64,000 nucleotides of DNA from Acinetobacter defluvii. Lineage in GTDB: Bacteria > Pseudomonadota > Gammaproteobacteria > Pseudomonadales > Moraxellaceae. This document shows, piece after piece, positions 2,087 to 5,664 of the stretch. Within the stretch, counting starts at the first letter, position 1; each line of letters starts with the position of its first letter. A program made the translations under genes and the position numbers. The notes under the pieces were generated by a model, which was not told the DNA's origin, ran no database searches, and worked only from the letters and a program-made list of their open reading frames with translations. Where the stretch lies: assembly GCF_001704615.3 (NCBI RefSeq), contig NZ_CP029397.2, positions 1,426,001 through 1,490,000 on the forward strand, read 5' to 3'.

Positions 2087-4213
2087 ATGGCTATGTTAGA
2101 TTTGCCTTACGATTCACAAAAGAATCAGACAGATGCATCACAAGCAGCTAAACCGGTTGTCAAAACAGGGATTAGCGATGATGTAAAACAAAGTTTAGAC
2201 TTGCTCCCGCATTTGATTTGGATTCAACGAGGAGATGCGAGTTATTGTAATAGCAGTTTAAAAGATTATATTGGTGCAGAAAGCCAATTCATTCCTTACT
2301 GTGATTTACTCAAATGCATTCATCAAAAAGATGCTGAGCACTTATATAATCTTTGGAATATTGCGCAAAAAACAGGGCAAAACTTCGAAAAAGAATGTCG
2401 TATCTGTGATGTGAATGGTGATTTTCAATGGTTGTTATTGATTGCCAAAAGCCATATTTTAAATACGGAACAGTTTGATTGGACGGTTACATGTACCAAT
2501 ATCCATGAGCGTGCTGTGTTGTTACGAGAAACAACAGAGAGTTTACGTGCACATACTGATATGCTTGATGTGAGTGTGGATTGCATTAAAATTGTACGCC
2601 CAAATGGAACAGTTTCACATATGAATCGTTCAGGCTGTATCGCATTATTAGGACAAGAAAAAGTTAAAAAATTTGATATGGAATGGTTGAGTCTTTTACC
2701 GCCAGAAGTGCGAGATAAAGGGCAAATTGCCATCACGTCTGCTGCAAAAGGTAAAAATGCGCGTTTTGCTGGGATGAGTGGAGAAGGTGAGGGTCGACAA
2801 TATTGGGATAATATTTTAACTCCAGTAGTGAATGAAGAAGGTGAAACAACGAGCATTTTGTGTGTTTCACGTGATATCACCTTACAGCGAATTGCAGAAA
2901 ATAAATTGCGTATTAGTAGTGAGCGTGATGAGTTAACAGGTTTAATGAATCGACGTTTGTTTAAACAACAACTTAAAAAGTCTTTACTTAAAGCCAAAAA
3001 TAATAAGCATATGCTCGGCTTAATGTTGATTGATTTAGATCATTTTAAACATATTAACGATACACTTGGTCACCCTGCTGGGGATCATTTACTTCGAATT
3101 TTATCAAAACGTCTAAGTCATAGCTGTGATGAAAATACCTATGTCGCTCGTTTAGGTGGTGATGAGTTTGCTGTGGTTGTAAATCATGTAGAAGATATCG
3201 AGCACTTTAAACAAGCAGCACAAAAAGTTTTAAAACAATTAGACCGCCCAATCACTTATACAGGTAAATTGATCAATGGCGGGATGAGTATTGGTTGTGC
3301 AATATATCCTAATGATGCAAAAGAAAGTTCAAATCTTCTTAAATTTGCCGATACAGCTTTAAACAACCTCAAAGAAGGTGGGCGCGGTGGAGTACGTTTC
3401 TTTAATCAAGAAATGTTGGATATTACTATTCAAAAAGCCAAGCAATTAGAAATAGCACGTCAAATTGTCCGTGAAAATAGTATCGAACCGCATTATCAAC
3501 CTAAAGTAAATTTAGAGACCGGCAAGATTATTGGTTTTGAAGCATTACTGCGTTGGAGAGATCTACAGAATAACATTCAATTACCAAGTACTGTTGCAGA
3601 AGCATTTAACGATTATGAGCTGGCTACAAAAATTGCTGAAACTATGCATGGTAAAATTTTTGATGATATTGCACTTTGGATTCAACAAGGTCTAGCCGTT
3701 GTACCTGTATCGATTAATGCTTCGCCTGTGGAGTTTATGCGTGATAATTATGCAGAAATTTTACTCAAACGGCTTGAGCAATATCAAATCCCTCATCATT
3801 TAGTTGAAATTGAAATTACTGAACATATTTTAGCTGAGCGTGGCTATATTTATGTAGCACGTGCTTTAAATAAACTGAAACAAGAAGGTGTGCGAATAGC
3901 TTTAGATGATTTCGGTACAGGACATTCCTCTTTAACACATCTACATGATTATCCAGTAGACACTTTGAAAATAGACTGCGGTTTTGTACATCGTATGAAT
4001 AGTGAATTACCGATTCATGCAATTGTGCAAGGTATTTCCCAACTGGGTCCAATTTTGTCTTTAGACATTATTGCTGAAGGGATCGAAACAGAAGAACAGC
4101 TTGAAAGTCTGAAACAAGTGGGTTGCAGTCTTGGGCAAGGCTTCTTGTTTAGTCGTGCAATAGATGCATCCCATGTTGCTGAGATGTTAAGCAAAAACCA
4201 TTTGGACATATAA
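2087..4213 (+). CDS. PAS-GGDEF-EAL protein (cyclic-di-GMP synthesis and breakdown)
   Basis: 708-residue cytoplasmic signalling protein without membrane segments. Two PAS-like regions (about 35-150 and 155-270) precede a GGDEF domain with an intact RLGGDEF motif at residues 355-361 and an EAL domain whose EAL motif begins at residue 485. The EAL side retains EIEITEH, ALDDFGTGHSSL, LKID and AEGIETEEQ, so both the diguanylate cyclase and the phosphodiesterase could be active. The position five residues before GGDEF, where an inhibitory RxxD site would sit, reads DENT, so product inhibition at that site is unlikely. The PAS domains probably sense a small ligand or redox state; which one is unknown. 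It is monocistronic, with the DAHP synthase leader downstream. Confidence 0.9.
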   Translation: MAMLDLPYDSQKNQTDASQAAKPVVKTGISDDVKQSLDLLPHLIWIQRGDASYCNSSLKDYIGAESQFIPYCDLLKCIHQKDAEHLYNLWNIAQKTGQNFEKECRICDVNGDFQWLLLIAKSHILNTEQFDWTVTCTNIHERAVLLRETTESLRAHTDMLDVSVDCIKIVRPNGTVSHMNRSGCIALLGQEKVKKFDMEWLSLLPPEVRDKGQIAITSAAKGKNARFAGMSGEGEGRQYWDNILTPVVNEEGETTSILCVSRDITLQRIAENKLRISSERDELTGLMNRRLFKQQLKKSLLKAKNNKHMLGLMLIDLDHFKHINDTLGHPAGDHLLRILSKRLSHSCDENTYVARLGGDEFAVVVNHVEDIEHFKQAAQKVLKQLDRPITYTGKLINGGMSIGCAIYPNDAKESSNLLKFADTALNNLKEGGRGGVRFFNQEMLDITIQKAKQLEIARQIVRENSIEPHYQPKVNLETGKIIGFEALLRWRDLQNNIQLPSTVAEAFNDYELATKIAETMHGKIFDDIALWIQQGLAVVPVSINASPVEFMRDNYAEILLKRLEQYQIPHHLVEIEITEHILAERGYIYVARALNKLKQEGVRIALDDFGTGHSSLTHLHDYPVDTLKIDCGFVHRMNSELPIHAIVQGISQLGPILSLDIIAEGIETEEQLESLKQVGCSLGQGFLFSRAIDASHVAEMLSKNHLDI

Positions 4214-4238: not shown

Positions 4239-4267
4239 TTGTCAAATGTGGCAAGTCCGAGTATTTT
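4239..4267 (+). promoter_or_regulatory. Probable promoter of the DAHP synthase leader transcript
   Basis: TTGTCA (4239-4244) and TATTTT (4262-4267) are separated by exactly 17 bases, a sigma-70-like pair, and would start RNA near 4274, about 23 bases before the first leader ORF. An imperfect inverted repeat, ACTTG (4237-4241) with CAAGT (4252-4256), overlaps the -35 and could be an operator. Prediction by eye only. Confidence 0.45.
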
Positions 4268-4296
4268 AATTTTATAGATTTTTTTATGTGAATAAA

Positions 4297-4356
4297 ATGC
4301 GAGTTAAACCTTTGATCAATAACGTATCTTATTATTTTTGGCAGTTCTTTAAGTAA
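4297..4356 (+). CDS. Aromatic-rich leader peptide 1 (attenuator)
   Basis: Nineteen-codon ORF reading MRVKPLINNVSYYFWQFFK. Six of its last eight residues are Tyr, Phe or Trp. It precedes a hairpin chain ending in a terminator and then the DAHP synthase gene, which makes the first committed metabolite of aromatic amino acid synthesis. By analogy with pheL and trpL, stalling at these codons when charged aromatic tRNA is scarce would change RNA folding. No good Shine-Dalgarno sequence precedes the ATG, which is the weakest point of the assignment. The stop codon lies just before hairpin segment B (4357-4361), the position expected for a classical leader. Confidence 0.75.
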   Translation: MRVKPLINNVSYYFWQFFK

Positions 4357-4432
4357 TTGCCTGAATACGTTTGGGCAAAAAAGTTGCCCTTCAAAGTTAA
4401 TACCTGATCGGCAACACCGATCAGGTTTTTTT
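4340..4432 (+). promoter_or_regulatory. Transcription attenuator of DAHP synthase (competing hairpins and terminator)
   Basis: Segments that can pair: A (4340-4343, GGCA) with B (4357-4361, TTGCC); B with C (4374-4378, GGCAA); C (4373-4378, GGGCAA) with D (4384-4389, TTGCCC); D (4383-4388, GTTGCC) with E (4410-4415, GGCAAC); and the terminator stem ACCTGATCGG (4402-4411) with CCGATCAGGT (4417-4426), followed by T4427-T4432. A ribosome halted on the Tyr/Phe/Trp codons leaves B free. B:C then frees D, and D:E blocks the terminator. A ribosome at the stop codon covers B, so C:D and the terminator form. With no translation A:B forms and gives termination. This is the logic of classical attenuation; the pairings are seen in the sequence, the function is inferred. 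Confidence 0.75.
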
Positions 4433-4465
4433 ATGCATTTAATTTTTAGATTTTTGGAGAATATG

Positions 4466-4570
4466 ATGAACACATTTAACACTACATACTTTAGCTACTT
4501 TTATTGGTTTAACTTTAATCAAGTGATGATGCGTATTCTGCAATCGAATAGACCCCATAAGCTCAAATAA
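4466..4570 (+). CDS. Second aromatic-rich leader ORF before DAHP synthase
   Basis: Thirty-four-codon ORF beginning MNTFNTTYFSYFYWFNFNQV; nine of residues 4-17 are aromatic (five Phe, three Tyr, one Trp). A clear ribosome binding site, GGAGA (4456-4460), is 5 bases before the ATG at 4466; an in-frame ATG at 4463 is closer than usual. The ORF starts 34 bases after the attenuator terminator and ends 29 bases before the DAHP synthase start. No T-tract terminator follows it, so any control would have to act through translational coupling, Rho or the small stem at 4575-4592. I know of no named equivalent. Confidence 0.7.
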   Translation: MNTFNTTYFSYFYWFNFNQVMMRILQSNRPHKLK

Positions 4571-4574
4571 AAGA

Positions 4575-4592
4575 TTGGACTTGAAGTCCCAA
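4575..4592 (+). promoter_or_regulatory. Small stem next to the DAHP synthase ribosome binding site
   Basis: TTGGACT (4575-4581) can pair with AGTCC-c-AA (4585-4592, one bulged C), loop TGA. Its 3' arm touches the AAGGA ribosome binding site (4591-4595) for the ATG at 4600. A ribosome finishing leader ORF 2 at 4570 would cover it, which suggests translational coupling. Inference only. Confidence 0.4.
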
Positions 4593-4599
4593 GGAAATC

Positions 4600-5664
4600 A
4601 TGATGAACATGTTAAATCAGGCTTTACAACAAACCAGCAAAGTAGAAACACAACTCAGCACACCGATTCAATTAAAACAACAATTTCCGTTAAGCCATTC
4701 TTTTGCTATGCAAATCGCAGAGCATCGTCAAACCATTCAAAATATCCTTGCTGGTAAAGATCAGCGTTTGCTGGTGATTACAGGGCCTTGTTCGCTGCAT
4801 GACCCTATTTCTGCTATAGAATATGCACAAAAATTAAAACACTTACAAAGCTTAGTGTCAGATCAAATTTTCCTTGTAATGCGTACATATATTGAAAAAC
4901 CAAGAACTACAATTGGTTGGAAAGGTTATATGTATGATCCAGATTTAGATGGTTCTTCTCACTTACAATTAGGCTTAGAAAAATCACGTGAATTATTTTT
5001 AAATATTATCGAGATGGGTTTACCGATTGCCAGTGAAATTTTAAGCCCAATGGCAACAGCTTATTTTGATGATTTATTGGCGTGGGGTGCAATTGGTGCG
5101 CGTACCAGTGAATCACAAATTCACCGTGAAATCTCAAGTCATATGCCTTTTGCAATAGGTTTCAAAAATGGGACAGATGGTTCAATTCAAATCGCTTTAG
5201 ATGCCATTCAGTCTGCCACACATTCACACCAATTTATGGGAATGGGACAGCATGGCTTGCCATGTGTGTTAGAAAGTACAGGTAACCGTTTGGCGCATTT
5301 AATCCTACGTGGCTCAAATTCTGGTTCCAACTATGATTTAAATGCCATAAAAGCCATTCGTGAGCGTCATCAAGGTGCTTTACCTGCATTGGTGATTGAT
5401 TGTAGTCATGGGAATAGTGCTAAAAATCCATTCCAGCAGCCAGAAGTGCTCATTCAAATTATTCAAGAACGTCATGAAACGCATGTACGTGGCGTGATGT
5501 TGGAAAGTCATTTGGTGGATGGTCAGCAGAAAATTTCTGATAACTTGGTTTATGGTCAATCCATCACCGATGGTTGTTTGGGCTGGAGCAAAACACAAGA
5601 TTTACTATTGGTGACACATGCACAATTGCAAAGCTTAACAACAAAGCATAAGTCTTGTGCTTAG
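4600..5664 (+). CDS. aroG: 3-deoxy-7-phosphoheptulonate (DAHP) synthase, class I
   Basis: Cytoplasmic enzyme that condenses phosphoenolpyruvate and erythrose 4-phosphate, the first step of the shikimate pathway. 354 residues, normal for the AroF/AroG/AroH family. Recognisable are ITGPCSLHD near residue 64, MRTYIEKPRTTIGWKG near 94, GARTSESQIHRE near 168 (metal and substrate region), GFKNGTDG near 187 and IDCSHGNSAKNP near 266. Which aromatic amino acid inhibits it cannot be told by eye, so the symbol denotes the family only. AAGGA precedes the ATG at 4600; a second in-frame ATG follows at once. Two aromatic-rich leader ORFs and an attenuator lie upstream. Confidence 0.93.
   Translation: MMNMLNQALQQTSKVETQLSTPIQLKQQFPLSHSFAMQIAEHRQTIQNILAGKDQRLLVITGPCSLHDPISAIEYAQKLKHLQSLVSDQIFLVMRTYIEKPRTTIGWKGYMYDPDLDGSSHLQLGLEKSRELFLNIIEMGLPIASEILSPMATAYFDDLLAWGAIGARTSESQIHREISSHMPFAIGFKNGTDGSIQIALDAIQSATHSHQFMGMGQHGLPCVLESTGNRLAHLILRGSNSGSNYDLNAIKAIRERHQGALPALVIDCSHGNSAKNPFQQPEVLIQIIQERHETHVRGVMLESHLVDGQQKISDNLVYGQSITDGCLGWSKTQDLLLVTHAQLQSLTTKHKSCA

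Follow-up and report, generated by a model that had tools for sequence, protein, structure and literature searches.

The 64,000-nt stretch of the Acinetobacter defluvii genome analyzed here (contig NZ_CP029397.2, positions 1,426,001 to 1,490,000 of the forward strand; referred to below as the window) carries aroG, a gene for 3-deoxy-D-arabino-heptulosonate 7-phosphate (DAHP) synthase, preceded by two short open reading frames (ORFs) that are rich in aromatic codons. Leader 1, which reads MRVKPLINNVSYYFWQFFK, lies before an intrinsic terminator; leader 2, which reads MNTFNTTYFSYFYWFNFNQVMMRILQSNRPHKLK and begins at a tandem ATG (4463 and 4466), follows the terminator and is separated by a small hairpin from the Shine-Dalgarno (SD) sequence and start codon that make up the aroG ribosome-binding site (RBS) (Table 1). 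A preliminary description of this DNA had given both ORFs with correct coordinates and peptides, and the alternating pairings that it listed (A:B, B:C, C:D, D:E, and E:F), together with a 10-bp terminator followed by six T, are all present. We argue below that leader 2 is likely a translational attenuator, which adds a translation switch to the transcription switch of leader 1.

Table 1. Features of the aroG leader region (positions in the window) and matches to the Rfam family RF00627 in related loci (positions in the locus named)
Feature	Position	Strand	Remarks
Promoter-like site TTGTCA-17-TATTTT, sigma-70-like, for the leader transcript	4239-4267	+	Consensus scan
Leader 1 ORF, YYFW..FF close to its end	4297-4356	+	ORF, conservation, coding constraint
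5' arm AACGTAT of co-varying helix	4321-4327	+	Partner 4365-4371
Segment A, GGCAGTT	4340-4346	+	Within Trp/Gln/Phe codons of leader 1
Segment B	4355-4362	+	Starts inside leader 1 stop codon; near-invariant core
3' arm ATACGTT of co-varying helix	4365-4371	+	
Segment C, GGGCAA	4373-4378	+	
Segment D, GTTGCCC	4383-4389	+	
Intrinsic terminator E:F, 10 bp, plus T tract	4402-4432	+	Stem 4402-4426, six T after
SD sequence of leader 2, GGAG	4456-4459	+	
Leader 2 ORF	4466-4570	+	Aromatic codons 4475-4516, then aromatic-free tail
Candidate anti-RBS segment, Trp-Phe codons UGGUUU	4505-4510	+	Pairs with 4595-4600 (6 bp in the window; as many as 12 bp elsewhere)
Hairpin GGACT-TGA-AGTCC	4577-4589	+	Between leader 2 stop and aroG SD
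aroG RBS, AAGGA plus first ATG	4591-4602	+	Further ATG at 4603
DAHP synthase (aroG), AroFGH type, 354 aa	4600-5664	+	NF009395 465 bits, TIGR00034 402 bits, both above cut-off
RF00627 match in L231	1090-1210		
RF00627 match in L233	1131-1250		
RF00627 match in L068	2076-2196		

A DAHP synthase match was found in each of the 175 Acinetobacter genomes searched. Upstream DNA was fetched for 149 of the 169 genomes with a match other than the second paralog (20 were not fetched), and the conservation of both ORFs across the genus, which the preliminary description had proposed to check, was borne out: both are kept in all 149 upstream regions, with leader 2 frameshifted in one. Leader 1 is present in 149 of 149; a script called the terminator and a leader 2 after it in 148, and the remaining genome, G119, does have leader 2. 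The frameshift is in G142 (the same record as locus L067), where leader 2 ends 71 nt before aroG, and represents either a natural loss or an assembly error; in G146 the script chose the wrong leader 2, and the right ORF is seen in L177. The same leader arrangement occurs in 67 named Acinetobacter loci, which overlap the 149 genomes; relatives of this DAHP synthase came from Acinetobacter in 67 of 68 loci. Six genomes (G116, G128, G129, G147, G148, and G168) have a single DAHP synthase match each, 44 to 46% identical, i.e., at second-paralog level, and lack the leaders, and the leader patterns matched neither leader in Acinetobacter loci L221 to L230, which represent the second paralog. In the same genome as the window, the upstream scan listed no comparable aromatic leader for the trpE and pheA matches (L260 and L263) and gave only one weak candidate leader for the second DAHP synthase (L264). 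Directly before trpE in L260, visual inspection shows a short ORF (MNSKQVFRWRH) that has an AGAGGA-like SD sequence; the ORF is below the length used in the scan. The chromosomal locus is also carried by a 3.97-Mb PLSDB record labelled as a plasmid (NZ_CP064203.1, L294), and the record is therefore probably a chromosome.

The ratio of nonsynonymous to synonymous differences (pN/pS) was 0.18 and 0.30 for leader 1 and 0.28 and 0.50 for leader 2 (pairs differing by 2 to 15% and by 10 to 30%, respectively), compared with 1.12 to 1.33 and 0.96 to 1.16 in the other two frames. By this measure, both leaders are evolving as coding sequence. The frameshifted L067/G142 was left out of the pN/pS analysis, as it was from the species comparison of leader 2-RBS duplexes, the folding model of 67 sequences, and the column-pair covariation screen described below. 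In all 74 non-redundant leader 2 sequences, the last aromatic residue is followed by 11 or more residues without an aromatic. The end of the ORF shows conservation of another kind: G is the final base of the third codon from the end in 117 of 118 unique sequences, independently of the amino acid encoded, and CTC follows this codon directly in 103 of 118. At this end of leader 2 (4550 to 4570 in the window), conservation across the main clade is at the RNA level, the commonest codons being AGA CCC ATA ACG CTC AAA.

Leader 1 and the RNA that follows it have the features of an attenuator, namely, a coding leader rich in regulatory codons, an intrinsic terminator before the gene, and conserved, mutually exclusive pairings (A:B, 4340-4346/4355-4361; B:C, 4357-4362/4373-4378; C:D, 4373-4378/4384-4389; D:E, 4383-4388/4410-4415; and E:F, 4402-4411/4417-4426). 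The fold of 4268 to 4436 is far better than those of dinucleotide shuffles (z = -4.33), and none of the 200 shuffles equals it. The core GGCA/UUGCC/GGGCA/UUGCCC/GGCAA is near-invariant among 137 unique sequences and, because it hardly varies, yields little covariation information. The covariation that the preliminary description had asked for across Acinetobacter is instead found in a flanking helix, AACGYAU:AUGCGUU, whose mean native score over 116 unique sequences is 13.94, compared with 12.53 after partner swapping (200 swaps; standard deviation, 0.18; maximum, 13.07; three sequences without a core match left out), and in the terminator stem C-G pairs change to U-A among relatives. These sequence features give good support to reading this first step, gate 1, as a known kind of ribosome-mediated transcription attenuator. 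Of the trp/phe-type logic first suggested for it, the coding leader, the near-invariant core, and the co-varying helix hold, and the relay of segments turns out to be more his-like: the his-operon attenuator has the same number and order of segments as the six-segment relay seen here, whereas the trp/phe type has four. One result weighs against gate 1 working in this way, in that minimum-energy folds with a ribosome masked at each of six positions kept the terminator in every case, as did the free RNA; the antitermination step is thus read from the order of pairing and is not a computed outcome.

The leader transcript probably starts near 4274, downstream of the promoter-like site of Table 1. 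The number of such sites in the consensus scan was not above that in shuffles; by eye, several divergent Acinetobacter also have TTGTCA before leader 1, followed some 17 nt later by a TATnnT-like site. On the same strand, the scan listed no promoter-like site between the terminator and leader 2. Leader 2 lies past the terminator and, barring a separate promoter, would be present only on mRNA that results from read-through. Upstream, the leader region adjoins a large gene on the same strand (2087 to 4213) for a GGDEF-EAL protein of the cyclic-di-GMP phosphodiesterase type.

Judging from the loci compared, the tandem arrangement is not confined to Acinetobacter. We use "Pseudomonas-type" for genomes with a leader matching Rfam Pseudomonas P15 or belonging to the same genus or family. 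In one such genus, all 25 genomes have the order leader 1, terminator, leader 2, DAHP synthase, with leader 1 as ..YFFYGYWFSQRRA or similar and leader 2 as MTAYTTYRYYRTSDWRFSS..RTLR or similar, and both leaders are present in L068 (Pseudomonas massiliensis). A wider survey took in 115 genomes of the order and scanned 29 loci; it found both leaders in seven loci (L231, L232, L233, L234, L236, L242, and L245; the terminator was uncalled in L236) and leader 1 alone in five (L235, L237, L238, L239, and L244). The scan found neither leader in 17 of the 29, with one doubtful candidate in L251, and many of these 17 are probably other paralogs. The Rfam family RF00627, "Pseudomonas sRNA P15," extends from the end of leader 1 to the terminator, inclusive, before DAHP synthase, in L231 (104 bits), L233 (96 bits), and L068 (82 bits; gathering cut-off, 70 bits), and P15 therefore looks more like a product of attenuation than like a small RNA (sRNA) gene in its own right. 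L242 scored 27 bits, below the cut-off, and L245 gave no match. The RF00627 covariance model found no match in the Acinetobacter window, and the Acinetobacter attenuator aligns with P15.

Leader 2, with the coding constraint given above, provides a translated leader before a possibly regulated RBS, and the RNA between them is conserved in shape. A hairpin of at least 4 bp is present in 71 of 71 foldable Acinetobacter sequences (of the 74 non-redundant ones, 3 are too short), with a mean z of -3.29. In 51 of 71 sequences 6 nt separate the stop from the hairpin, and the gap from hairpin to SD is most often 1 nt (43 sequences). The hairpin sequence is GGACUG...CAGUCC in the main clade and differs in other clades (e.g., GGGUUUCGACCC and GAGCAGAAUGCUC). 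The order stop, hairpin, SD recurs in many Pseudomonas-type loci, where 15 of 17 sequences were foldable (mean z = -1.15). Mostly, 31 to 45 nt separate the leader 2 stop from the aroG ATG, and most aroG starts carry their own AAGGA-like SD. Three Acinetobacter genomes (G144, G013, and G091) have no hairpin, and there the leader 2 stop lies 8 to 17 nt before the aroG ATG. Two further pairings were seen in folds or by eye, one of the leader 2 tail (AGACC...AAUAAAAG) with its own aromatic codons and one of AGUC in leader 2 with the 5' arm of the hairpin; in some clades they are missing or show no variation.

Duplexes of up to -19 kcal/mol between the aromatic codons of leader 2 and the aroG RBS are possible in many species. 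In Acinetobacter, the fraction of sequences whose 7-mer at the Trp codon pairs with the RBS is 0.33 (n = 64), compared with a mean of 0.031 over positions; for 6-mers in Pseudomonas-type loci it is 0.38 (n = 16), compared with 0.028. In both groups, the Trp codon is where 6- and 7-base pairing with the RBS is most frequent. When the Acinetobacter Trp window was compared with 125 RBSs of other genes, P was 1e-7 (0.010 after similar sequences were collapsed to 14; n = 64), and when it was compared with other windows of the same leader against the same RBS, P was 1e-10 (6e-4 after collapse to 14). The corresponding values for the Pseudomonas-type loci were 0.011 with 48 controls (0.049 after collapse to 9; n = 16) and 5e-5 (0.006 after collapse to 9). 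Among nUGGn 5-mers, pairing with the RBS occurs in 26/64 Acinetobacter sequences versus 0.21 expected and in 12/20 Pseudomonas-type sequences versus 0.00, and CCA occurs within the SD-AUG stretch in 25/64 and 13/16, compared with 12/125 and 13/48 controls. Between the two genera, the bases on either side of UGG change in step with those opposite them (U-UGG-U/A-CCA-A and C-UGG-C/G-CCA-G). In a folding model of 67 sequences, the mean unpaired fraction of the RBS was 0.33 in the free RNA; a ribosome on the Trp codon raised it to 0.53, whereas one at the leader 2 stop gave 0.29.

These tests differ in their samples. Nine non-redundant sequences of other architecture were left out of the column-pair covariation, recoding, 24-nt-energy, k-mer, and RBS-control tests, and the last three also left out G007, which has no Trp codon. 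From 32 Pseudomonas-type loci with both leaders, the 24-nt-energy and nUGGn tests took 31 (20 distinct), the hairpin test 17, and the ribosome-fold test 15, and the k-mer and RBS-control tests used 16 picked by hand.

Several results weigh against the Trp-codon stretch acting as an anti-RBS. The test for contiguous helices between Trp codon and RBS was itself framed after examples had been seen. Whole-leader duplex energies are unremarkable, both relative to synonymous recoding (mean z = -0.37; n = 74) and relative to 26 other RBSs (mean z = -0.14; n = 74), and we reject a duplex between the whole of leader 2 and the RBS as a general rule, its energies being nothing special. For the 24 nt around Trp in Acinetobacter, the mean z relative to 92 other-gene RBSs was -1.16, with 18 of 64 sequences at P ≤ 0.05 and none of the 64 at 0.01; in 20 Pseudomonas-type loci with 20 controls, the mean z was -0.14, and none reached 0.05. 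Strict Watson-Crick 5-mers in Acinetobacter peak 22 nt before the Trp codon (0.53), with the Trp codon next (0.27). The accessibility of the RBS is just modestly below that of synonymous recodings (n = 65; mean z = -0.49 free and -0.54 with a ribosome at the stop; standard errors, 0.17 and 0.16), and in the window this effect has the opposite sign. A column-pair screen found no leader 2-RBS pair that reliably co-varies in Acinetobacter; it listed five pairs, and the one that looked reliable lies in the leader 2-aroG hairpin, so that covariation is not proof of RBS pairing within the genus. In the window itself, the Trp codon and RBS share 6 bp (UGGUUU:AAAUCA), duplexes there and in L004 to L006 are weak (-4.7 to -6.9), and the region 4437 to 4640 folds no better than shuffles (z = +1.73). 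Some clades have no CCA ahead of the aroG AUG, and in six genomes (G070, G076, G077, G084, G100, and G153; loci L215 to L220) leader 2 does not end ahead of a hairpin but extends across the aroG start in another frame. Among 15 Pseudomonas-type loci, moving the ribosome from the leader 2 stop to the last aromatic codon opened the RBS by at least 0.05 in just 4 (L231, L232, L282, and L285).

The peak 22 nt before the Trp codon corresponds to UUCAU (within 4484 to 4490 in the window), which in roughly half of Acinetobacter is complementary to AUGAA at the start of aroG. In the lwoffii group, UUCAU:AUGAA is the longer pairing.

The preliminary description had suggested a second gate after the terminator, either translational or Rho dependent. 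Conservation and the complementarity of Trp codon and RBS speak for the translational form, which is likely but unproven, with several tests weak or null, and the best form of it, equally unproven, is one in which the Trp-codon stretch would serve as the anti-RBS. The putative signal is a shortage of charged Phe, Tyr, and Trp tRNAs. Under starvation, a ribosome stalled on YYFW of leader 1 would cover segment A, and B:C and then D:E would form and weaken the terminator; with aromatic amino acids in plenty, a ribosome at the leader 1 stop codon would cover B, and C:D and the terminator would form. On read-through mRNA, at gate 2, a ribosome in plenty would clear leader 2, and the Trp-codon stretch could then pair with the aroG SD-AUG stretch beside the SD-abutting hairpin and reduce aroG initiation, and under starvation a ribosome stalled on the aromatic run would occupy the Trp-codon stretch and leave the aroG RBS open. 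Gate 2 could in this way switch off aroG mRNA that has already been made. The stalling, the pairing in cells, and the direction of each gate are steps that we infer from the arrangement of the RNA. We give even chances to this scheme, in which one aromatic-tRNA shortage signal is read twice on one transcript, through transcription at gate 1 and translation at gate 2. The full proposal, i.e., a tandem attenuator common to Acinetobacter and Pseudomonas-type bacteria in which the sensing codons of leader 2 act as the anti-RBS and P15 is the terminated product of the first half, is more tentative and falls somewhat short of that.

Part of the same anatomy could also be explained by positive translational coupling, in which ribosomes that end leader 2 reinitiate at aroG and the hairpin holds stop and SD close together, so that the aromatic codons would throttle AroG rather than induce it. 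In its favor, the distances from stop to hairpin and from hairpin to SD vary little, while the loop and the total distance vary; the stop lies close to the ATG in the three hairpin-less genomes; and the six genomes with the stop just past the aroG start have starts that lack the SD pattern searched for. We nevertheless consider coupling doubtful, as its sign opposes that of gate 1 (starvation would lower AroG), it leaves the complementarity of Trp codon and RBS unexplained, and most aroG starts have an SD of their own. That complementarity is likewise not predicted if ribosome traffic alone is at work, with a finishing ribosome occluding or unfolding the aroG initiation region and an upstream stall freeing it, independently of any specific anti-RBS pairing. 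Traffic would suit the placement of the aromatic codons in the first part of leader 2, with the long aromatic-free stretch after the last of them in 74/74 sequences, as well as the six overlaps with the aroG start, and it would work where pairing is weak, as in the window; the usual distance from stop to ATG, however, may exceed the range of direct occlusion, and we regard this explanation as unlikely.

Two other roles for leader 2 have very little probability in our estimation. If leader 2 governed Rho-dependent termination in the leader, the weak structure of the post-terminator region in the window would be in keeping with this, but stalling under starvation would, by our reasoning, expose RNA and favor Rho, which is the wrong sign. 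TnaC is an arrest peptide that senses a free aromatic amino acid, and a leader 2 of that kind would fit the conservation of its peptide in the main Acinetobacter clade; among clades and genera, however, the sequence differs while the aromatic richness stays, and the end of the ORF is conserved at the RNA level (the G-ending third-last codon), which makes an arrest peptide similarly remote. Translational attenuation by leader 2 is the reading that we carry forward. If it is true, a single amino acid signal acts on one biosynthetic gene at two levels, transcription and translation, via two separate leader peptides, which would explain how the entry step of aromatic synthesis is controlled in Acinetobacter and Pseudomonas-type bacteria, and a possible function is suggested for the catalogued Pseudomonas "sRNA" P15.

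The preliminary description regarded its dual leader for a DAHP synthase as undescribed, which is too broad: according to passages of PMC4046766 and PMC11802643, aroF (DAHP synthase) of Corynebacterium glutamicum is preceded by the aroR leader peptide with Phe-Tyr-Phe. As described there, that system has in common with ours an aromatic leader peptide before DAHP synthase and differs in having one leader and belonging to another phylum; the likeness is one of description. Passages of PMC11802643 also mention the trpL and pheL leaders, and in those of a regulon study covering Proteobacteria (PMC5343134), attenuation is mentioned only for trp and pheA. Among the matches listed from the open-licence literature, there was no report of a tandem-leader design and none of a leader peptide for DAHP synthase in Acinetobacter or Pseudomonas. 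P15 itself is catalogued in Rfam (RF00627) as an sRNA gene, and leader 2 lies outside the model.

The enterobacterial his, trp, and phe attenuators share with gate 1 the codons for the regulated amino acid in a leader peptide, the alternating segments, and the intrinsic terminator. The aroG leader differs from them in its his-like six-segment relay, in its codons for three amino acids, and in the second leader after the terminator. Two short ORFs within one leader are also found in Salmonella mgtCBR (mgtM/mgtP), with other signals and another arrangement. The closest parallel to the proposed gate 2 may be offered by ermC and by ermA, which has two leader peptides, where a ribosome stalled in the leader exposes the RBS of the gene that follows; in the aroG leader, by contrast, the signal would be starvation for amino acids, and it is the sensing codons that are complementary to the RBS.

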